64,000 bases of DNA, from the NCBI GenBank assembly GCA_002702065.1, contig NZXX01000009.1:434001-498000 (forward strand), in the 5' to 3' direction. The position numbers and the translations under genes were made by a program. Of the stretch, positions 25,361 to 36,391 are shown one piece after another. Below the pieces are notes generated by a model. That model searched no databases. It saw only the letters and a program-made list of their open reading frames with translations, and had not been told where the DNA came from. The stretch's first letter is position 1, and each line of letters begins with the position of its first letter. Origin of the DNA: Anaerolineaceae bacterium. Lineage in GTDB: Bacteria > Chloroflexota > Anaerolineae > Aggregatilineales > Phototrophicaceae.

Positions 25361-25431
<71 letters not shown>

Positions 25432-25436
25432 CTGAT

Positions 25437-25462
25437 GGGTATCTGCAAGGATACCCTTTTTT
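25437..25462 (+). terminator. Rho-independent terminator of tRNA-Cys
   Basis: GGGTATC-tgcaag-GATACCC, a perfect 7-bp stem, followed by six T. It begins 5 bases after the tRNA discriminator. Confidence 0.9.
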
Positions 25463-25487: not shown

Positions 25488-25688
25488 ATGGCTCGACCAT
25501 CCCGCAAGCCCGAACAACCACCCCAGGATGATGAATCCACGCTGCGGCAGGCGCACCCGCACCCATCACCACTGCCGAACTACGCCCTATCATCCGTCTG
25601 CCCGGCCTGCAACACACCCACCTATCGCCTTGCCTGCAAAGTCCGCTGCCCGCGCTGCGGCTTTATGTGGGATTGCAGCGAACTCTAA
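25488..25688 (+). CDS. Small zinc-ribbon protein
   Basis: 66 residues. The C-terminal half has two Cys pairs, 'CPACNTPTYRLACKVRCPRC', the pattern of a rubredoxin-like/zinc-ribbon knuckle pair. The N-terminal 30 residues are polar and Pro-rich. ATG at 25488 is preferred to a GTG at 25470 that touches the terminator. The gene starts 26 bases after the tRNA terminator, with a weak ribosome site, so expression is not certain. Function unknown. Confidence 0.55.
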   Translation: MARPSRKPEQPPQDDESTLRQAHPHPSPLPNYALSSVCPACNTPTYRLACKVRCPRCGFMWDCSEL

Positions 25689-25788
25689 ACCCGGCACCCC
25701 TTTCCTTGCAACGATCGTTTGCGCGTTTCCTGGAAAATTACAGTTTTTATAACTTCGTTACAAGTTAACGTGTTATTAAACAAAAAAG

Positions 25789-25810
25789 GTGTTAGGTTAG
25801 TGTTAGTTAC
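25789..25810 (+). promoter_or_regulatory. Tandem 11-base direct repeats upstream of the exopolysaccharide cluster
   Basis: GTGTTAGGTTA (25789-25799) is followed directly by GTGTTAGTTAC (25800-25810), one helical turn apart, 46 bases before the start at 25856. The surrounding stretch 25689-25855 is AT-rich and gene-free. It may be a protein binding site in the cluster promoter; CGTTA-(5)-TAACG at 25756-25770 is a second possible site. Confidence 0.4.
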
Positions 25811-25855
25811 AATATATAGACTCACGTTACGATCAATCTAGTGAGGGGTCTGCTT

Positions 25856-27814
25856 GTGAACGCATCTATCGCAACGACAATGCTGCGCGCCATCTTGCGC
25901 TGGTGGTGGCTTATTGTTTTATCGGTTTCCCTGGGTGTTGGCGTTGGCTACATTGTACGCTCACAACAACCAGACCTGTACTTCTCCGAAGCCACCGTCA
26001 TTGTTGGTGCTGACTCAAATAATCCTGTTCCTACCGGTGTTGATTCTACTGTACTTGATGCCTATTCGGTCCTGATCGGGCGTAACAGCCTGCTGCAACC
26101 CGTTATCGATGATCTGGGGTTGAACATTTCGGTTCTTGACCTGATGGAGTTGATGAGCCTCGAAACCAACCGGTCGGCTTCGCTTATCACAATCGGGATT
26201 ACCGATACGGATCCGGAACGCGCAGCCGCTATCGCCAACCGAATCGTCGATGAATTGATTCGCCAGACGTCGGATCGTGCCACTTTGCTCGATCTGGAAT
26301 TTATCAACAGCCAGATTGAGGACATGCAAAACCAGATCAACAACCTGCAAAGTCAATACAACCAGCTGGTGCAAGAAGCCGCCACCATCACATCGGCGTT
26401 CGAGTTGAATCAGAACATCGAAGATCGCGGTGAGATCGAAAAATCCATTCAGGAACTGCGCACACTGCTGCTGAGCCTGATCGAGAACGCACCCCGCAGC
26501 GAGATCCAGGTATTTGAACCTGCGGACCCCAACTACTTCCCGCTGACGGCAAACAGCGTCCGCGACCTGCTCATCGCGGGTGTAGCGGGTGGCGTGTTGG
26601 CCTTGCTGACGATTGTACTGTTCACCTATTTTGATGATCGCCTGCAATGGGACGAAGAAAGTTCTGCCGAGACCATTCTTGGCATGCGCATCCTTGGGCC
26701 GCTGGGGATTATTCCCCGTAACAAGCTGCCCCTGTACGTAGAGAGTATGCCGCAATCCATTGAAACTGAGGCGATGCGCCAGTTGCGCGCGCGTATCGCG
26801 CTGGCTGCCGGGGGCGACATGCCCCATATCCTGACCGTCGTCAGCTATGACTCGGGTGAAGGCAAAACGCTGACCACCGCCAACCTTGCGCTTGAATCTG
26901 CCCAAACAGGGCTGCGCACCCTCATCATCGATGGTGATATGCGGCGGGGCGATATGCACGAAATCTTCCAGCTACCCAATATGTATGGGCTGGGCGATAT
27001 TTTGCAGAGCAACGAGCCCTTGGCCAATTTGCTGCCGAATGTCCTGCTGGATAGCGGCTACGAAAATTTGAACATTATCCCGGCGGGACGGTCCGAAGCA
27101 GACCCGGCGGCCTTGCTGGGGCGCACCCGGCTCAACAATTTGATTGATCTGCTGTCCAAGCGTTACGATGCCATTTTCATTGATGCCGTGCCAACCATCG
27201 GTGGGTCAGACTCCGTCTTTCTGGGCGAGATCAGCGACGGCGTCATTATCATCGTCAACGCACGCCGGACTCGTCTGTCCTCGCTGCGCCGGTCCAAAGA
27301 TGAATTGATGGCGGCTCCTAACGTGAATATCCTGGGCGTGGTCTTCAATCGTGTCCGGCTTCAGGTAACGTCCAAATACAACAATACCTACTACCGTCAA
27401 ACCCCGGCCCTCACCCCGGAGAAGCTCAGCCGCGAGATGGCCCGGTCCGGTTCGGGGCTGTTTGGGATGCGCCGTCACATCATTACAACCGGTCGCGGCG
27501 AACGCCTCTTCTCGGTGTCGGCCTGCGCTGCCCGGCTGGGTGTCAAACGGCGCACCGTTCAGGGCTGGATTGAAACCGGTCATTTGCAAGCCGAAAGCCG
27601 GTTCATGCGCCAGTGGATTCCCGAAAGCGCTATCGACATGGTCCTTTCTCAGCGAATCACAACCGTAGAACCGCCAACACCGGCCAGTGGCGTAAGCGAA
27701 GAATCACCAGATTCGAGCAATGGGACACATGGCACGCCTGGCGACCTGCGCGCTCAACGCGAGGCCATTCTTGACTTTGTCAGCCGTCCCAACAAATCCG
27801 ATTCAGAGAATTAG
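25856..27814 (+). CDS. Polysaccharide co-polymerase/tyrosine autokinase fused to a C-terminal HTH domain
   Basis: 652 residues from a GTG at 25856, picked because GAGGGG lies 7 bases upstream (track start 25841). Order: membrane helix (~12-32), Wzz-like periplasmic region with a coiled coil ('INSQIEDMQNQINNLQSQYN'), second helix (~240-262), then a bacterial tyrosine-kinase domain with Walker A 'SYDSGEGKTLTTANL' (~330), Walker A' 'LIIDGDMRRGDM' and 'YDAIFIDAVPTIG'. 'KYNNTYYRQ' may be the autophosphorylated Tyr cluster. After it, ~548-600 is an excisionase/MerR-like HTH ('SACAARLGVKRRTVQGWIET'), unusual in this family. It controls chain length of the exported polymer. First gene of the cluster. 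Confidence 0.88.
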   Translation: MNASIATTMLRAILRWWWLIVLSVSLGVGVGYIVRSQQPDLYFSEATVIVGADSNNPVPTGVDSTVLDAYSVLIGRNSLLQPVIDDLGLNISVLDLMELMSLETNRSASLITIGITDTDPERAAAIANRIVDELIRQTSDRATLLDLEFINSQIEDMQNQINNLQSQYNQLVQEAATITSAFELNQNIEDRGEIEKSIQELRTLLLSLIENAPRSEIQVFEPADPNYFPLTANSVRDLLIAGVAGGVLALLTIVLFTYFDDRLQWDEESSAETILGMRILGPLGIIPRNKLPLYVESMPQSIETEAMRQLRARIALAAGGDMPHILTVVSYDSGEGKTLTTANLALESAQTGLRTLIIDGDMRRGDMHEIFQLPNMYGLGDILQSNEPLANLLPNVLLDSGYENLNIIPAGRSEADPAALLGRTRLNNLIDLLSKRYDAIFIDAVPTIGGSDSVFLGEISDGVIIIVNARRTRLSSLRRSKDELMAAPNVNILGVVFNRVRLQVTSKYNNTYYRQTPALTPEKLSREMARSGSGLFGMRRHIITTGRGERLFSVSACAARLGVKRRTVQGWIETGHLQAESRFMRQWIPESAIDMVLSQRITTVEPPTPASGVSEESPDSSNGTHGTPGDLRAQREAILDFVSRPNKSDSEN

Positions 27815-27830
27815 CGATTAGGCCATAACA

Positions 27831-29279
27831 ATGCTGAACATTGCCTATCATGTTCAGAATAGGGTGCTAAGTGCCATTGGTCAGGCAAAGTATCAGCTAT
27901 TCGACAAGCACTTCATCCATACAATCCGGGTTGGATTGGTTCTGACAACAGTTCTACTCTGTCTGGTTATGGCCTTCCTGATCGGCTACAAAGGGCTGAT
28001 TGGGTTGGCCGTAATCGGCGGTGTCGCCGCGATCAGTGCGCTGGTGTTTGCTTACGCCTACACAGAATACGTTGTCATGGCGCTTATCCTGACGACGACG
28101 ATTATCGCACCACCCATTCCGCGTGACGTCACCACCACGCTGGTGCTGTTGCTCCTCCTGACTCTGATCTGGTTGTCGCGCCTGCTGCTGGTCGAGCGGT
28201 CATTCCAGTCGATTCGCCCAGCGCCGCCCAATCGGTACGTGGTTCTGTTTGGCATCATCGTGGTCATCTCCTTTATCTGGAGCCAGCTGTATGTGGATCC
28301 GCACATCGCCTACCTGCAAAACAGCAAGTTGATGCCGCGCATCGTCACGGCGATCGTGATGATTCTGTCACCGGTGGCGATGCTGCTGTTTGGTAATTTC
28401 CTCAACACAATCCATCAGATTCGCTGGATCATCTGGTTCTATATCGGCTATGGTGCGATTGCCATCATCCCCAAGTTTTTAGACTTTAGTGTGCCCATGA
28501 ATTTTAATCTGGGCGGTCAGTTACCGGTCTGGGTCAGCATCTTTGCTATGGGGCAGGTGCTCTTTAACGAGCGGTTACTGCGCTGGCAGCGTTTGGTGCT
28601 CCTCGGCATTGTCGGCGGCTGGACCTATGTTCAGTTTTTTATGGGGCGCGAGTGGATCAGCGGATGGGCGCCGCTTTTTCTGGGGTTAGGCATTGTCGTC
28701 ATGCTGCGGTCGCGCGCTGCCTTTGTGGTGCTGGTGATCATCGCCGTGGCGTACCTGATCGCCGATCAAGATGTTCTGGCGCGCCTCATCGAGGAAGAAA
28801 GCACCATATCCGGCGAGACACGCCTCGAAGCGGGTAACCTGGCGATTGATATTGCCAACGGACACTTTCTGTTTGGAACCGGGCCAACAGGTTATTACTT
28901 TTACATGGCATATATCCTGAAAGACTGGTTTCAGCTTTCCCATAACAACTATGTCGACATTTACGCCCAGCTTGGCATTTTTGGGTTCATCACCTGGATC
29001 GCCATGTGGGTCAGCATTGGCTGGCTGATCTGGCAAACCTATCGACGGCTGCCCAAGAACGGTTTCGTCGGTGGGCTGACCGTTTCGCTCTTTGCCTGTT
29101 TCTGGGTCACGCTGGTGCTGATGATGCTGGGTGACTGGGTGATTCCATTCACCTATACCCAGACCATGCGTGGCTTGAGCTATACGGTGTGGCCCTGGCT
29201 CTGGGCGGGACTGGCGATTGCGTTAATGCATTTGTGGCGCCAAAACAAACTGAGTGCCGACCCATCACAAAGCACTTGA
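27831..29279 (+). CDS. O-antigen polymerase/ligase-like membrane protein (Wzy/WaaL family)
   Basis: 482 residues with about eleven hydrophobic helices. The long loop before the late helices contains 'FQLSHNNYVDIYAQLGIFGF', the His-containing motif of the Wzy_C/O-antigen ligase family. Such proteins join lipid-linked oligosaccharide units into a polymer on the outer face of the membrane. It starts 16 bases after the tyrosine-kinase gene, so it is the second gene of the same operon and the likely polymerase for this locus. Confidence 0.88.
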   Translation: MLNIAYHVQNRVLSAIGQAKYQLFDKHFIHTIRVGLVLTTVLLCLVMAFLIGYKGLIGLAVIGGVAAISALVFAYAYTEYVVMALILTTTIIAPPIPRDVTTTLVLLLLLTLIWLSRLLLVERSFQSIRPAPPNRYVVLFGIIVVISFIWSQLYVDPHIAYLQNSKLMPRIVTAIVMILSPVAMLLFGNFLNTIHQIRWIIWFYIGYGAIAIIPKFLDFSVPMNFNLGGQLPVWVSIFAMGQVLFNERLLRWQRLVLLGIVGGWTYVQFFMGREWISGWAPLFLGLGIVVMLRSRAAFVVLVIIAVAYLIADQDVLARLIEEESTISGETRLEAGNLAIDIANGHFLFGTGPTGYYFYMAYILKDWFQLSHNNYVDIYAQLGIFGFITWIAMWVSIGWLIWQTYRRLPKNGFVGGLTVSLFACFWVTLVLMMLGDWVIPFTYTQTMRGLSYTVWPWLWAGLAIALMHLWRQNKLSADPSQST

Positions 29280-29296
29280 TTCTCAACGAGGTGATC

Positions 29297-30868
29297 ATGA
29301 CTAATCGCAAGCACTTCACCCGGTTCATTGGACTGGGGTTGCTTTGCCTCATCTTTATGCCGGCGCTGGCCGTATCCGCGCAATCGAACCCGGAGATTAT
29401 CCGGTGGCTTGCGCCGCAGTACATCGCGCAAGGCTGGTTTCCGAGTATTTCAGTTGATGAAACCGACTCGGTTTATATCGGCTGGCATGGTGGCACCGAC
29501 GATAACGAACTGCTCGACTTACTGTGGCTTGATGTCCTGCGACCGGGTGAAACGTTCGGTGATCCTGTCGATGTGGTTTTTGCGGCTGAAGGTGGCTATA
29601 CCGTTCGTTCCGCGCTGGATGTGTCGACTGATGGGGTGGTGTACGCTATGTACCGCACCCACACCAGCCACGCGCTTTCAAACGCACCAGCTGAACGAGC
29701 TGATTCTGCGCAGGAGTGGAAACAAGTCGCCCATTTTCAAAACGCGGCCTATTACCTCGATATGGTGGTCGACCGCAATAACGTTATTCACGCCATTTCG
29801 AGTGAGCAGGGTGTCAACTTACAGATCATTGACACCGGTAAACTGGCTGAAAACGCCCTGCGTGAGCGATTCCCGTGTGCTTTTTGTTCCGACCTTATCT
29901 ACCGGCGGTCTGCGGACGGCGGACGAACATGGACATCTCCCATTAACCTTTCCGAGTCGATTGATGGCTCGGAACGACCTGACATTTTCGAGGGCCACAG
30001 TGGCCGGCTGTATGTCACCTGGGATGAAGGCGCAGACTGGTACATCAGCCAGGGTGAATATCAGGATGTGCGCTTCATTTATTCGGACGATGGCGGGCAA
30101 TCCTGGTCGGACGTGATCATCCTGTCGGGCAACGAACTGCGGCATCTGCATCCAACCCAGTTTTCGCTTACAGAAATGAACAATGGCAACCTGATGGCGG
30201 TCTGGCGTTATGGGCTGGACACAGACCGGCGCATCTACTTCCAGATTTCGGAAGATCTCGGCCAGACATGGACAGAGCCGGAACCAATCCCTTACATTGT
30301 TGCCGACAACGTTCAGGATTCCGAACTCGACAAGTACGAGCTGATTACTGACCTTACAGGTGCTGTACATCTGTTTGCAGTCGGCTTTGACGAGGCTTCG
30401 TTACAGGGCCCGGCGTTATATCATATCACCTATATTCAGGGCAGCTGGCTGATCCCCAGCCGCATCTATTATGATCCTGACGTGAAGCGCCCGGAATGGC
30501 CTTCTGCTGCTGTCGGCCCGCGTAATGACCTGCACGTCGCCTGGTTTGTGCGTGTCGGTGACGGGGTCAATGCGGCAGATGTGGGTACGTTGCAGGTCTA
30601 TTATTCCTCACGGACGCCCACATTACCGGATCGTCCCGTGCTGGTTGCCTATGCCCCGACGGCGACCCCGGTCCCACTGCCAACGCGTATCCCGACATTC
30701 GAGCCAACGGCCACCATCCTGCCGACACTCGCCCCGCTGGACACCAACACGAACGTCAAGATTAATCGTGACCAGTATGCGTCGCAGACTCTTGTGGGGG
30801 CGCTGCTGGCGGTCGGGCTGCTGTGTGGTGGGCTGCTGGTGGTCACCGGTTTTCGCCGAAGACGCTAA
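29297..30868 (+). CDS. Exported BNR/sialidase-like protein with C-terminal membrane anchor
   Basis: 523 residues from the ATG at 29297 (GAGGTG upstream), not the track start at 29189. Signal peptide 'MTNRKHFTRFIGLGLLCLIF'. Three Asp-box repeats mark a six-bladed propeller: 'RSADGGRTWTSP', 'YSDDGGQSWSD', 'ISEDLGQTWTEP'. A Thr/Pro linker and a last hydrophobic helix before 'GFRRRR' anchor it outside. Asp-box propellers include sialidases and carbohydrate binders; the sialidase Arg triad cannot be confirmed by eye. Seventeen bases after the polymerase gene, so part of the operon. Confidence 0.82.
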   Translation: MTNRKHFTRFIGLGLLCLIFMPALAVSAQSNPEIIRWLAPQYIAQGWFPSISVDETDSVYIGWHGGTDDNELLDLLWLDVLRPGETFGDPVDVVFAAEGGYTVRSALDVSTDGVVYAMYRTHTSHALSNAPAERADSAQEWKQVAHFQNAAYYLDMVVDRNNVIHAISSEQGVNLQIIDTGKLAENALRERFPCAFCSDLIYRRSADGGRTWTSPINLSESIDGSERPDIFEGHSGRLYVTWDEGADWYISQGEYQDVRFIYSDDGGQSWSDVIILSGNELRHLHPTQFSLTEMNNGNLMAVWRYGLDTDRRIYFQISEDLGQTWTEPEPIPYIVADNVQDSELDKYELITDLTGAVHLFAVGFDEASLQGPALYHITYIQGSWLIPSRIYYDPDVKRPEWPSAAVGPRNDLHVAWFVRVGDGVNAADVGTLQVYYSSRTPTLPDRPVLVAYAPTATPVPLPTRIPTFEPTATILPTLAPLDTNTNVKINRDQYASQTLVGALLAVGLLCGGLLVVTGFRRRR

Positions 30869-31017
30869 TGTTGCCCCCAAATCCGGCAATTAGGGATTTG
30901 TTAGGTGCCAAATTCGCTGTATTTAATTCTGATGTAAGGCGTTTTGCATAATCTGTAGCATAGGAATAGCCAACTGATTAATCTGGTAAGAAAACCATTA
31001 CAAGAACAGGGACCGTT

Positions 31018-32340
31018 ATGCACATTGCAGTAATCGGTGGTGGCCTGATGGGGATGACACTGGCCTACTTTTTATCGGAGGCCGGACAACGCGTGACCGT
31101 GCTGGAACAGGGCAGCGCGATCGGGGGGTTACACAACCCCGCACAGCTGGCCGATAATCTGTCCATTCCGCGTTATCCCCACAATATTCATCCCGGCGAC
31201 AAGCATATTTTCAAGTTGATCAATCAACTTGGTTTGCAGGATGAAGTCTGCCGTCGCCACGCGCCATCCGGTCTCGTCCATCACGGGGATATCTACCCGC
31301 TGCGCTCCATCTGGGATTTTCTGACCTTTCGACCGCTGCGCCTGCGCGATCGTCTGCGCCTCGGCCAGACCATCCTTCAGGCTCGGCTCACCAACGACTG
31401 GCACACACTCGACCAGATACCGGTTAGAGACTGGCTGATTAAAATCGGTGGCAAGTCAAACTTCGAGCGTGTGTGGGCACCCCTGCTGGAAGCCAAGTTT
31501 GACTATGATTATGACGACGTCCCCGCGACATTTATCTGGAGCTGGCTCAACCGGGCCTCAACCCTGCGCGGCGGGCCAGATTTGCATACCTCGCTTGTCT
31601 ATTTACGCCGGGGGCCGGGCGCGCTTGTCGAGGCTATGGCCGACGCCATTCGGGCACGGGGTAATGAAATCCGTGTTCAGACACGTGTCCGCGAGATCGA
31701 AATTCATGACAACCAGATTGGCCAACTGCGGACCTACAGCGGCATCCTCGATTTTGACATGGTCGCGGCGGCCATTCCCACGCCCGAACTCAGCCACCTG
31801 CTGCTCACGGCAGACGAAACATACCGGCAGTCGCTGAGCAAAGCGCCCTATCTGGGGCTGATCTGCCCGGCGCTGGTCGTTGATCAGCCCGCATCCGAAT
31901 ACTGGACCCTGAACCTGACTGATCCCAGCAGCCCGTTTTCCAGTATTGTCACCCTGCCACACCCGGATAACGCGCAGTATCACGTCATGTATCTGCCAAA
32001 GTACACCGCGCCAGAAAATGACTGGATGGGCGTGCCCGACAGCGACATTCTGGAGGCCTGGATGATTCGGCTGCGGCAGGTCTACCCGAACCTCAAACCG
32101 GAACACATCAAACACGCCGTTGTCAATCGCACGCGCTATGTGGACCCACTGCACGCGCTCAACGCCAAAGAACGCATACCTGCTGTTCAAACACCGTATG
32201 AAGGGCTTTATCTCGCCAATACCAGTCAGGTCTACCCCGAACTGCCGACCAGCGAGGCCGTGATTGCCCACGCGCAGCGCGTTGCCCGACAGCTTCTGGC
32301 ACAACCTGTCCGCCATACACTCTCATCGACTGCTGCCTGA
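31018..32340 (+). CDS. FAD-dependent amine oxidase/protoporphyrinogen oxidase-like protein
   Basis: 440 residues. The N-terminal Rossmann motif 'MHIAVIGGGLMGMTLAYFLS' and 'VTVLEQGSAIGGL' are the dinucleotide-binding signature of the NAD(P)/FAD amine oxidase clan, which also holds UDP-galactopyranose mutases and proteins found in polysaccharide clusters. A late 'GLYLANTSQVYPELPTSEAV' resembles the FAD-closing motif. The 149 bases before it include a 7-bp hairpin (CAAATCC/GGATTTG near 30880) and probably a promoter. The substrate is unknown; it may modify a lipid-linked sugar. Confidence 0.82.
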   Translation: MHIAVIGGGLMGMTLAYFLSEAGQRVTVLEQGSAIGGLHNPAQLADNLSIPRYPHNIHPGDKHIFKLINQLGLQDEVCRRHAPSGLVHHGDIYPLRSIWDFLTFRPLRLRDRLRLGQTILQARLTNDWHTLDQIPVRDWLIKIGGKSNFERVWAPLLEAKFDYDYDDVPATFIWSWLNRASTLRGGPDLHTSLVYLRRGPGALVEAMADAIRARGNEIRVQTRVREIEIHDNQIGQLRTYSGILDFDMVAAAIPTPELSHLLLTADETYRQSLSKAPYLGLICPALVVDQPASEYWTLNLTDPSSPFSSIVTLPHPDNAQYHVMYLPKYTAPENDWMGVPDSDILEAWMIRLRQVYPNLKPEHIKHAVVNRTRYVDPLHALNAKERIPAVQTPYEGLYLANTSQVYPELPTSEAVIAHAQRVARQLLAQPVRHTLSSTAA

Positions 32341-32357
32341 AAAGATCGACAGGAATT

Positions 32358-33560
32358 ATGCGAGTCCTTCTGCTTACCCAGGTTCTGCCTTATCCGCCCG
32401 ACAGCGGCCCCAAGGTCAAGACGTACTATGTCCTGAAGTATCTCGCCCAGCATCATCAGGTGACGCTGGTGTCCTTTGTGCGCGATTCCGATCAACCCGC
32501 TTATATCCGGCATCTGGAAACCCTGTGCGAGCGCGTCGTAACCGTACCCATCACACGCTCGAAAACCCGCGACCTGCGTTTTCTGGGCGAAAGCTTGCTC
32601 AACGGTCAGCCCTGGATGATGCTGCGCGATGAGCGTCCGGAGATGCGCCAGGCGCTGGCTGATCTGGCTGCTGGCGAACCTTTCGACATCGTGCATGCCG
32701 ACCAGTTAAATATGGGGCAGTATGCGCTGCCCTTCGAAAACAGCCGCAAGGTGCTCGACCTGCACAACGCGCTGTGGATGCTGTACAAACGCACGGCGGA
32801 AACCTCGGCGCTGACCGACCCGATGAAATACATTCTGACGCGTGACTGGCCGCTGCTCAAGCGCTATGAAGGTGACTTGTGCCGCCAGTTTGATGCCGTC
32901 ACCGCCGTTACGGATGAAGACTGCCAGCTGCTGGTCGAAGCCGGTGCGCGTGATGATATTACGGTCATACCCATTGCAATCGACACCGACGAGCAGGCCC
33001 AGGTCAACCGCCGACCATCTGGCCCGCACATCACCCACATCGGCACCATGTACTGGCCGCCGAATATTCAGGGCATTACCTGGTTTCTGGAAAACGTGTA
33101 TCCGCTCATCAAGGAACAGGTGCCGGATGTCCGCTGCACGCTGATCGGATCGCGCCCGCCTGAAAGTATTGTGCAGCGCAGCCACACCGACCGCACCCTC
33201 ACCGTCACCGGCTATGTCGAAGACCCACAGCCCTTCATGGAAGATTCCAGCATGATGATCGTGCCGCTGCTGGCCGGGGGCGGCATGCGCGTCAAGATTC
33301 TGAACGCGCTGGCGCAGGGTATTCCGATGGTCAGCACCACGATTGGTTCGGAAGGCATCAAGGTGTCGCACGAAAAGGACATCCTGATCGCGGACGAACC
33401 GGCGGAATTTGCGCAGCAGTGTGTGCGCCTGCTGACGGATTATGAACTCAACACCCGGCTCACACAGGCGGGCCGCCAGACAGCCGAGCAGTATTATGAT
33501 TACCGGCAAGCCTGCCGCCCGCTCGGCGAGATTTACCGCAAGCTGGTGCCCTCCACCTGA
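32358..33560 (+). CDS. GT4-type glycosyltransferase
   Basis: 400 residues. GT-B family 4 pattern: 'MRVLLLTQVLPYPPDSGPKV' at the N-terminus, 'FDIVHADQLNMGQYALP' in the acceptor domain, 'ITHIGTMYWPPNIQGITWFL' opening the donor domain and 'VPLLAGGGMRVKILNALAQG' with the Glu-less variant of the EX7E region. It resembles the TIGR03087-type enzymes of exported polysaccharide systems. It lies 17 bases after the FAD gene, within the one-direction cluster. Confidence 0.9.
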   Translation: MRVLLLTQVLPYPPDSGPKVKTYYVLKYLAQHHQVTLVSFVRDSDQPAYIRHLETLCERVVTVPITRSKTRDLRFLGESLLNGQPWMMLRDERPEMRQALADLAAGEPFDIVHADQLNMGQYALPFENSRKVLDLHNALWMLYKRTAETSALTDPMKYILTRDWPLLKRYEGDLCRQFDAVTAVTDEDCQLLVEAGARDDITVIPIAIDTDEQAQVNRRPSGPHITHIGTMYWPPNIQGITWFLENVYPLIKEQVPDVRCTLIGSRPPESIVQRSHTDRTLTVTGYVEDPQPFMEDSSMMIVPLLAGGGMRVKILNALAQGIPMVSTTIGSEGIKVSHEKDILIADEPAEFAQQCVRLLTDYELNTRLTQAGRQTAEQYYDYRQACRPLGEIYRKLVPST

Positions 33561-33640
33561 CAACCAGCCTTTAGCCTTGTGTAAGGCGGCTCATTTACGA
33601 TGAGTTCAGGCTTGGTAACGGCAGTGGAGGCCCACAATTC

Positions 33641-34843
33641 ATGCGGATTCTGTTCGTTTGTCCTTACATCCCATCCCATATTCGCGTGCGTGCCTACAAT
33701 GTGCTGCGCGTACTTGTCGAGCGCGGCCACGATGTCACGCTGGCCGTGCTGCAACCACCGGGCGAACCTACAGACTCCCTGCCCGAACTTCGGCAATGGT
33801 GCCGCAACGTGCATGTTGTCCCCCACAGCCGGTCACAAACGCTGCTGAATGGCGCGCGCGGGCTGACTCAGAATCTGCCATTACAGGCGGCATACTCCCA
33901 CTCCGCACCATTTAACCAGCTCATCCGCAAGCTGCTGCAAATTGAAACCTTCGATGTGGCGCATGTCGAGCATCTGCGCGGCGCGGTGCTGGCTGACTCG
34001 CTGGGTGATCTGCCCATCGTGTTTGATTCAGTCGACAGCATCTCGCTGCTTTTTGAAAAGGTGCTCAAGGATGCCCCCAGCCTCAAAAGCCAGCTGATCG
34101 CATCCCTTGACCTGAAACGCACCAAAAAATTTGAGGGTAAGCTCACGGATCGCTTCCCAGAGGTGGCCGTCACCAGCGAAGCGGACCGGCAGGCATTGAT
34201 CGACCTGGGCAGCGATGGCGAGCACGTCACTGTTGTGTCGAACGGGGTGGATCTGGATTACTTCCAACCGCTAGACCTGCCCCGCAACCCGCTGCGGCTG
34301 GTCTTCACCGGCAAGATGAGCTATCACGCCAATATCGCGGCGGCGCAGGACCTGGTCGAGAAGATTATGCCGCTGGTCTGGGCAGAACAACCGGACGCAC
34401 ACTTGCAGATTGTTGGTAAAGACCCTTCCGCTGTTATTCAAATGTTAGGCGAAAACCCTAAGATTACGGTGACAGGCTTTGTTCCTGACATGCGGCCCTA
34501 TCTTGCCGAAGCCGCTGTCGCCGTCAGCACCGTGCGGTATGGCGTGGGCATCCAGAATAAAGTGCTCGAAGCGATGGCGATGGCAACCCCGGTGGTGTGT
34601 TCACCCCAGGCCTGCTCGGCAATCAGCGCCCAACAGGGTCAGGACTTACTGGTGGGGGGATCACCAGAAGCCATTGCCCGGCACATCCTCAGCCTGCTGG
34701 CAGATGCCCAGCAGCGCACCGCCGTAGGAACCGCCGGACGTCGTTACGTCGAGCAGCATCAAACGTGGGATCGTGTCGCTGCTCAGTTCGAAGACCTTTA
34801 CCAGCGAGCAATCGTCAAACGCGAACGGTTGGTTGCTGTTTAG
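33641..34843 (+). CDS. GT4-type glycosyltransferase (TIGR03087-like)
   Basis: 400 residues, clearly paralogous in layout to the gene before it. Visible are 'MRILFVCPYIPSHIRVRAYN', 'FDVAHVEHLRGAVLADSL', 'VFDSVDSISLLFEK', 'LVFTGKMSYHANIAAAQDLV' and 'VSTVRYGVGIQNKVLEAMAM'. The VDS motif in the middle is a mark of sugar transferases associated with EpsH/PEP-CTERM-type polysaccharide loci. It probably adds the next sugar of the repeat unit. Followed by the initiating phosphotransferase after 15 bases. Confidence 0.9.
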   Translation: MRILFVCPYIPSHIRVRAYNVLRVLVERGHDVTLAVLQPPGEPTDSLPELRQWCRNVHVVPHSRSQTLLNGARGLTQNLPLQAAYSHSAPFNQLIRKLLQIETFDVAHVEHLRGAVLADSLGDLPIVFDSVDSISLLFEKVLKDAPSLKSQLIASLDLKRTKKFEGKLTDRFPEVAVTSEADRQALIDLGSDGEHVTVVSNGVDLDYFQPLDLPRNPLRLVFTGKMSYHANIAAAQDLVEKIMPLVWAEQPDAHLQIVGKDPSAVIQMLGENPKITVTGFVPDMRPYLAEAAVAVSTVRYGVGIQNKVLEAMAMATPVVCSPQACSAISAQQGQDLLVGGSPEAIARHILSLLADAQQRTAVGTAGRRYVEQHQTWDRVAAQFEDLYQRAIVKRERLVAV

Positions 34844-34858
34844 CAGGAGGGACAGCCA

Positions 34859-36391
34859 ATGGGAACACGGATTCTGGATACCAGCATGGGTTCACGGTCA
34901 AACGTCCTGCCGTTTAATCCGGGACACCTGATGTATCGAGTACGTCAAAATTCAAGTTCAAAATTACGCATGGTCCAGGCGTCACTGGTCGTCATTGATA
35001 TGCTGATGGTGGCGCTGGCCTTCTGGGCAGCCTACAACATGCGCTTCGAAGGCTTTACCGCGGTCCTGTTCGACGCGGAAGGTATCAGCGACGTCGAGTT
35101 TTACCAGCAGACGGTATTTTTTCTGGTGCCGCTGTGGTTGGGCCTGTTTCTGATATTTAAGGCTTACGACCGCTCTATTCTCTTTTCCGGGCACCAGGAA
35201 TACACAAGCATCTTCAACGCCTCCACCGTCGGCATCATGCTCGTCATCGTCCTGATCTTTCTGGACATGAACCTGGTTATCGCGCGTGGCTGGTTGATCC
35301 TGGCGTGGTTGTTTTCTGTCAGCTTCGTCTGGCTCGATCGTTTTATTATCCGGCGCGTGGTTTACGAAGCACGGCGGCGCGGGCATTTCCTGACCCCAAC
35401 CTACATTGTCGGCGCCAACCCCGAAGGTATCGCTATCGCCGGTCACCTGATGAGTGCGCCGCAGCATGGCATTAACGTCATCGGTTTTCTGGATGACATG
35501 CTGGGGGCGGGCGAGGCCGTAATGCCGGATGTCGTGGTGCACGGTTCGACCGAACGTGCCGAAGAATTGTGTGGCAAATTCGGTGTCGAACGTCTGATTG
35601 TGGCGACCAGCGGCGTCGAACGTGAACACCTGCAAGCGATGTTCAAGCGGTTTGTCAACGTCGATGATGTGTCCGTCTGGCTGTCCTCCGGCATGTACGA
35701 AATGCTCACCACTGGCGTTCGCGTGCAGGACATCGGCTCGATGGCGATGATCAGCGTCAACCGGGTGCGGCTCAACGGCATCAATATGGTCGTCAAAACC
35801 GTTATCGATTACGTCGGCGCGGTATTGGGGCTGCTGGCCCTGTCACCCATCCTGCTGGGCATCATCCTGATTATGAAACGTACCGACCCCGGTCCGATCA
35901 TCTACCGGCGGCGAGTGGTCGGTGTGGGCGGCAAACAGTTCGACGCCTTCAAATTTCGCACGATGGTGGTCAACAGCGCCGAAGTGCTGGCCGAGCATCT
36001 GGCCAACAACCCGGAGGCCAAAGCCGAATGGGACAAGTACGAAAAGCTGCGCGATGACCCGCGCGTCACCCGCATTGGCGACTTTCTGCGCAAAACCAGC
36101 CTCGATGAGCTGCCGCAGTTGATCAACGTGCTGCGCGGCGAGATGAGCCTGGTTGGGCCGCGCATGATTACGCTGGACGAGGTCGAACGCTACGGGCAGT
36201 GGGACATGAATATTCACACCGTCAAGCCCGGCCTGACCGGTCTGTGGCAGATCAGCGGGCGCAGCGAAGTGTCGTATGCCGAGCGCGTGCGGCTGGATAT
36301 GCACTACATCCGCAACTATTCGTTCTGGCTCGACCTGCAAATTCTGGTGTGGACGGTGCCGGTGGTGGTGTTCCGCAAAGGGGCGTACTAG
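34859..36391 (+). CDS. Polyprenyl glycosylphosphotransferase (repeat-unit initiating enzyme)
   Basis: 510 residues from an ATG preceded by AGGAGGG. Four N-terminal membrane helices (~40-160), a CoA-binding-like middle domain ('TYIVGANPEGIAIAGHLMSA'), a fifth helix (~315-340) and the catalytic sugar-transferase domain with 'FDAFKFRTMVVNSAE', 'KTSLDELPQLINVLRGEMSL', 'VGPRMI' and 'KPGLTGLWQISGRS'. WbaP/WcaJ-type enzymes move a sugar-1-phosphate from a UDP-sugar to undecaprenyl phosphate and so start the repeat unit. It is the last gene of the cluster and is followed by a terminator. Confidence 0.95.
   Translation: MGTRILDTSMGSRSNVLPFNPGHLMYRVRQNSSSKLRMVQASLVVIDMLMVALAFWAAYNMRFEGFTAVLFDAEGISDVEFYQQTVFFLVPLWLGLFLIFKAYDRSILFSGHQEYTSIFNASTVGIMLVIVLIFLDMNLVIARGWLILAWLFSVSFVWLDRFIIRRVVYEARRRGHFLTPTYIVGANPEGIAIAGHLMSAPQHGINVIGFLDDMLGAGEAVMPDVVVHGSTERAEELCGKFGVERLIVATSGVEREHLQAMFKRFVNVDDVSVWLSSGMYEMLTTGVRVQDIGSMAMISVNRVRLNGINMVVKTVIDYVGAVLGLLALSPILLGIILIMKRTDPGPIIYRRRVVGVGGKQFDAFKFRTMVVNSAEVLAEHLANNPEAKAEWDKYEKLRDDPRVTRIGDFLRKTSLDELPQLINVLRGEMSLVGPRMITLDEVERYGQWDMNIHTVKPGLTGLWQISGRSEVSYAERVRLDMHYIRNYSFWLDLQILVWTVPVVVFRKGAY

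Follow-up and report, generated by a model that had tools for sequence, protein, structure and literature searches.

A tyrosine kinase of the exopolysaccharide machinery with a predicted C-terminal winged helix-turn-helix in Anaerolineae

What does a domain of the DNA-binding type do at the end of a membrane-bound kinase of polysaccharide assembly? The question is raised by a gene at positions 25856 to 27814 of a 64,000-nucleotide stretch of DNA from an Anaerolineaceae bacterium (here called the window; all its features described below lie on the forward strand). Its product joins a Wzz/Wzc-type co-polymerase, a BY-kinase and a C-terminal winged helix-turn-helix (wHTH), and it bears on the feedback that the rest of the cell receives from capsule and exopolysaccharide assembly. 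Elsewhere, the targets of BY-kinases are soluble regulators or ParB; here, a DNA-binding-type domain sits inside the co-polymerase and is kept across the class. We found no earlier description of a BY-kinase-HTH fusion in the open-access literature searched.

Architecture and spread of the fused protein

The gene starts with a GTG codon after a GAGGGG ribosome site and ends with the stop codon at 27812-27814, its reading frame being unbroken over 652 codons. The 652-residue protein is composed of a co-polymerase, an intact-looking BY-kinase, a short tyrosine stretch and a C-terminal wHTH. Full-length homologues of 665 to 709 residues with an open frame are found in 17 other species of the window's family, which is f1 in our family numbering, and 18 orthologues are the basis of most counts given for f1. 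An earlier note on this DNA, made from the letters alone, had read the HTH as the continuation of one protein past the tyrosine segment and had set the limits of the tail at residues 540 to 652; the limits are right, and the unbroken frame and the homologues in the 17 other species agree with a single protein.

The N-terminal Wzz-like part (residues 1 to 259, positions 25856 to 26632) is recognised from the AlphaFold2 model, a profile match to Wzc in the PDB and a Pfam Wzz match, which is weak in the window protein and above the cut-off in two relatives (L009 and L016). The model places two transmembrane helices in the kinase's own chain, at about residues 17-37 and 230-259, with a periplasmic domain containing long helices between them. 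The BY-kinase domain (residues 298 to 504, positions 26747 to 27367) matches TIGR01007 over residues 306 to 512 with 127.1 bits, against a curated cut-off of 108.05, and a profile search of PDB sequences matches the S. aureus CapA1/CapB chimera (PDB ID 4jmp) at an E value of 3e-79 and also the Wzc octamer structures. The residues of the ExxRxxR oligomerisation motif (E305, R308, R311), of Walker A (G334-E-G-K337), Walker A' (D359-x-D361-x-R363) and Walker B (D443) are invariant or nearly so among the 18 orthologues.

The tyrosine stretch (Y508, Y512 and Y513; residues 508 to 513, positions 27377 to 27394) was located by alignment, is disordered in the AlphaFold2 model and includes the pair Y512-Y513, which is invariant in the 18 orthologues. 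It holds only three tyrosines and lies before the wHTH rather than at the C-terminus, with about 140 residues coming after it. In some distant fused members, for example L179, the stretch is reduced or missing altogether. Both L179 and L172 (families f17 and f55) have few or no tyrosines after the kinase and keep the HTH, and L179 has an odd Walker A; judging from these residues, the two kinases may be catalytically changed.

The fusion is conserved across Anaerolineae. It is present in 19 of the 98 genomes of the window's family, with one copy each, in 4 of 24 genera, and in another family of the same order (L067, with an upstream frame break in its assembly), and six further families came from a sample of 396 genomes of the class. 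The fused families outside f1 are f6, f12, f14, f17, f48, f52 and f55. Whether relatives share the fusion, a check proposed in the earlier note, is thus answered by the window's family and at least six other Anaerolineae families. None of the hits outside the class, within the phylum, is a fused kinase. In a kinase tree built without the tail, fused and unfused proteins fall on opposite sides of one branch with a support of 100/100; as the unfused set comprises only the relatives found by the search, a single origin is compatible with this tree and not proven by it. A split partner of the "Rosetta" kind, with a free HTH gene beside an unfused kinase, was absent from the unfused loci examined.

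The winged helix-turn-helix and its DNA-reading face

The wHTH covers residues 549 to 600 (positions 27500 to 27655) and is of the MerR/BldC/Xis/HTH_17 type, as indicated by profiles, the AlphaFold2 model and fold comparison. In the window protein alone the domain stays below threshold, with 17.9 to 21 bits for HTH_17 (cut-off 27) and 17 to 19.6 bits for the excisionase family TIGR01764 (cut-off 28.8), and it becomes unambiguous through its relatives: HTH_17 is matched by 25 of 28 fused tails with a best E value of 2.4e-13, and four distant members from other families reach 40 to 45 bits, above the gathering score. The AlphaFold2 model has a pLDDT of about 94 over residues 549 to 600 and shows a strand-helix-helix-wing-helix topology. 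The nearest solved folds are BldC bound to DNA, the Xis of phage Pukovnik and RacA bound to DNA, with Foldseek probabilities of 0.97 to 1.00 and E values of 0.03 to 0.2, which are individually weak. A profile search of PDB sequences with the tail points to the same three families, namely Xis (PDB ID 4j2n, E value 6e-6), BldC (2e-4) and RacA (7e-4). The tail is thus confidently predicted to hold a wHTH. The excisionase/MerR-like HTH of the earlier note is borne out by this search of residues 540 to 652, and its concern that the helix pair might not fold as an HTH is met by the confident predicted fold.

Absent from that account is a second conserved element in the tail, a C-terminal helix at residues 629 to 643 (positions 27740 to 27784) of the type LRxQRxAxLDFV. 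The helix, seen in alignments and in the AlphaFold2 model, is preceded by a second, disordered linker and is found only in f1 members.

The earlier note had also considered that a sequencing error might join two genes. Such an artefact, or an HTH-like segment arising by chance, would fit the scores of the window protein's HTH, which taken alone are below the Pfam and NCBIfam cut-offs. The same uninterrupted fusion in the 17 other f1 species and in other families already refutes it, and the HTH_17 scores above the gathering threshold in relatives and the confident predicted fold point the same way, leaving this explanation with a negligible probability.

In BldC, the residue before a conserved tryptophan, Arg30, makes a specific base contact; the exchange R30A essentially abolishes DNA binding, and RacA relies on the equivalent arginine (PMC5859096). 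The window protein has Gly570 at this position (codon 27563-27565). All 10 fused kinases from the other families have Arg or Lys at residue 570, against 0 of 18 f1 proteins (Fisher p 8e-8, a nominal value, as the sequences are related), and residue 576 is Arg in 10 of 10 tails of the other families and replaced by other residues in f1. The tail of L175 retains an RRW helix. From the alignments, the base-reading arginine is lost in f1. The core of the domain, with S553, A556, L561, G562, W571, G575 and W587, is invariant in f1, and the wing position 585 is Arg or Lys in 18 of 18 proteins (R585 in the window protein, where R565 and R566 are also still basic). The net charge is positive in 16 of the 18 f1 domains, the other two being neutral or acidic overall, and the recognition helix differs among orthologues that share the same promoter element. 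The f1 domain kept its predicted fold while its reading face changed. The phage Xis (PDB ID 4j2n) has an Asn at the Arg30 position by alignment and belongs to a DNA-binding family, so the loss of the arginine does not prove a loss of DNA binding.

Gene cluster and promoter element

The fused gene is the first of a conserved exopolysaccharide operon. It is followed by a Wzy/O-antigen ligase-like polymerase (27831 to 29279; Pfam Wzy_C at 7.7e-7, slightly below the cut-off; 18 of 18 loci) and a BNR/sialidase-like repeat protein (29279 to 30868; profile and synteny, 17 of 18 loci). A second operon (31018 to 36391), assigned by profile and synteny, encodes an FAD amine oxidase-like protein (31018-32340; 14 of 18 loci), two GT4 glycosyltransferases (32358-33560 and 33641-34843; GT4 in 13 of 18 loci) and a WbaP-like sugar transferase (34859-36391; 10 of 18 loci). 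On the other side, a tRNA-Cys (gca; 25361-25432) and the terminator-like hairpin behind it (25437-25456) set the kinase operon apart from the upstream genes. Directly upstream of the kinase promoter lies a short ORF (25528-25688) ending in PNYALSSVCPACNTPTYRLACKVRCPRCGFMWDCSEL, a zinc-ribbon-like peptide that has a close counterpart at the corresponding position in G022 (a small ORF in L193); the stretch, taken in an unconfirmed reading frame, matched no Pfam family.

Comparison of the orthologous upstream regions yields the promoter element TTAGG-N4-TGTTAGTT at positions 25792 to 25808, a direct TTAG repeat with an 11-bp period. The exact element is located 46 to 75 bp before the kinase start codon in 13 of the 18 orthologues; the pattern occurs 15 times in the 98 family genomes, 13 of them at the kinase promoter, and the copy described here is the only exact one in the window's genome. 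A candidate -10 hexamer, TAGACT (25817 to 25822), is found 10 bp past the second half-site, and across sites the pattern [TC]ANNNT is enriched at precisely the -10 offset; a consensus scan of the kinase start did not detect a sigma-70-like promoter. A MerR-type palindromic operator was dropped as a candidate, no palindrome being noticed and the conserved element being a direct repeat. A second copy, TTAGGGATTTGTTAGGT (30890 to 30906), has one mismatch and precedes the second operon; G022 (L050:15632) and G055 (L060:6407) each have a counterpart, which lies downstream of the kinase.

In the genome of 6.77 Mb the looser pattern TTAGG-N5-GTTAG has six sites, each of them promoter-like. Five stand before glycan genes, namely the fused kinase, the second operon, galE, rmlA and a GT2 glycosyltransferase gene, and the sixth overlaps the start of a response regulator gene. 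With the sites outside the window (G000:C1:400087, C3:86975 and C9:205856), the five form a candidate regulon of unlinked polysaccharide genes. The GT2 gene (region of G000:C9:205856, L230) has a triple TTAGG repeat upstream, and its element is kept in 17 of the 18 fused genomes. The gene itself is absent, at an E value of 1e-60, from 25 of the 26 genomes in which the search detected no fusion; the exception, G048, is an incomplete member of a fused genus and has the element too. The GT2 promoter was therefore uninformative as a contrast between fused and unfused genomes. As GT2 tracks the fused kinase in f1 genomes, it suggests one pathway split over two loci.

With 13 of 15 exact hits at the kinase promoter, the element looked convincing as a private operator of the fused kinase. 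This reading was weakened because the arginine is missing and because the looser repeat, with the same -10 spacing, is also present in unfused genomes. A -10-like hexamer stands at the fixed offset in 30 of 49 sites in fused genomes (offsets 25-26) and in 8 of 12 promoter-like sites in unfused ones (offset 25), the element with its -10 precedes rmlA in G001, a genome without the fusion, and the looser element gives 79 hits in 17 fused genomes versus 28 in 17 unfused genomes. The element was not found upstream of the distant fused kinases with an Arg-bearing HTH. The sequences thus indicate a shared class of glycan promoters. The suggestion of the earlier note that the HTH could control the cluster through the region 25689-25855 is upheld in that the region contains a strongly conserved direct repeat at 25792-25808, and it loses ground on the HTH itself, through Gly570 and the same promoter architecture in unfused genomes.

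Possible functions of the tail

The Wzc protein cycles between octamer and monomer as its tyrosine tail is phosphorylated, thereby controlling Wzy (PMC11986026). We favour, with a probability of about 0.5, a variant of this Wzc/BY-kinase system in which the tail would connect the octamer, cycled by phosphorylation, with a protein partner or the nucleoid. A Wzc-type co-polymerase/BY-kinase would have gained a C-terminal MerR/BldC/Xis-type wHTH early in Anaerolineae. As in Wzc, the polymerase Wzy would be surrounded by an octamer of the Wzz/kinase part, and this octamer would dissolve once the tyrosine stretch, just before the wHTH, is phosphorylated. Since as many as eight tail domains would be displayed by the ring, against a single one on the phosphorylated monomer, binding by the tail would depend on avidity and be gated by the kinase cycle. 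In the Anaerolineae families other than f1, the tail is probably DNA-binding and would connect the export machine with promoters or the nucleoid, and phosphorylation-gated DNA binding is plausible there. In f1, the recognition helix has changed with the fold, the basic wing and the added C-terminal helix kept, and the loss of the base-reading arginine suggests that the tail may now serve for docking or tethering. It would most likely make weak DNA-backbone contact or bind a protein partner and in this way couple position or gene expression to the state of assembly; a classical operator-reading repressor or activator is the less likely role.

A point against docking is that the conserved promoter element sits exactly where an autoregulator would bind. 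As such, the wHTH would recognise TTAGG-N5-GTTAG at its own operon, the second operon, galE, rmlA and GT2, so that the assembly state controls glycan-gene transcription. The distance of 46 to 75 bp kept in 13 of 18 orthologues, the restriction of the looser pattern to six promoter-like sites in the genome, five before glycan genes, and the co-occurrence of GT2, its element and the fusion all speak for it, as does the near structural relative BldC, which binds direct repeats. The BldC repeat is 9 bp, however, and not 11; all f1 members lack the base-reading arginine, their recognition helices vary despite the same element, distant fused kinases with the arginine are without the upstream element, and element and -10 recur in unfused genomes, including before rmlA in G001. 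Autoregulation is possible on this evidence, but we do not favour it. A complete feedback in one protein seems improbable to us. The octameric co-polymerase/kinase would then be the transcription factor itself and would read the TTAGG direct repeats both before its own operon and before unlinked genes for sugar precursors, its avidity being set by tyrosine phosphorylation; if true, the state of polymer assembly would directly set transcription of the glycan regulon. The same promoter architecture in genomes without the fusion suggests that another regulator probably reads the element. PhoB/OmpR-type boxes are usually direct repeats with an 11-bp period and a -10 ten bases past the second half-site. 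This layout, together with the lack of a sigma-70-like promoter in the scan of the kinase start, makes an independent regulator unrelated to the HTH, for example a PhoB/OmpR-type response regulator, the likelier reader, and we consider it probable, even though the protein is a candidate only and the sites are commoner in fused genomes. This reading concerns the promoter element and can hold together with a docking or tethering tail.

The tail might also bind DNA with low specificity, either positioning the export machine as a nucleoid anchor, like RacA or CpsD-ParB, or stimulating autophosphorylation once DNA is bound, like YabT. Fold and profile searches both place RacA among the top matches, the basic wing is kept in 18 of 18 f1 proteins, and precedents exist in CpsD-ParB, which couples a BY-kinase to the chromosome in Streptococcus pneumoniae with no DNA binding detected for CpsD (PMC4574921), and in YabT, a DNA-activated membrane Ser/Thr kinase of Bacillus subtilis (PMC6333020). 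This role is doubtful for f1, where the Arg30-equivalent contact of RacA is lost and two domains are neutral or acidic overall. The lineage-specific change of the reading face makes a DNA tether and a protein dock separable by simple binding tests, and the promoter element, which joins unlinked polysaccharide genes as a candidate regulon, gives a concrete candidate operator.

The known systems each share a part of this design. The protein resembles Wzc/CapAB of the PCP-2a type (TIGR01007) in its Wzz domain with two transmembrane helices, Walker A, A' and B, ExxRxxR, a tyrosine stretch after the kinase and an adjoining Wzy-like gene, and differs in that the stretch is short and not terminal, with the wHTH and the f1 end helix in the residues beyond. 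With BldC, the best solved-structure match, and MerR-like proteins it shares the fold, the T-V-x-x-W-x-x-x-G helix and the basic wing, but here the domain is fused to a membrane kinase and has Gly for Arg30. RacA and phage Xis (HTH_17/excisionase) are precedents for a MerR-like wHTH in architectural use instead of classical transcription control, although neither is fused to a membrane kinase and RacA keeps the base-reading arginine. In CpsD-ParB a BY-kinase is likewise tied to chromosome biology through its phosphorylation state; the pneumococcal link runs via ParB, whereas the present protein has a DNA-binding-type domain of its own. YabT is also a membrane kinase with a DNA-binding region, but it is a Hanks-type kinase with a disordered basic region and no wHTH.

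In other BY-kinases of the Chloroflexota, the kinase is followed by different domains, namely an FHA domain (L009:928-3132, reverse strand), a GAF domain (L137:9971-12199, forward strand) and DUF4332 (L016:1246-2904, reverse strand). The tail of the BY-kinase in this phylum seems to be a hot spot for domain additions.
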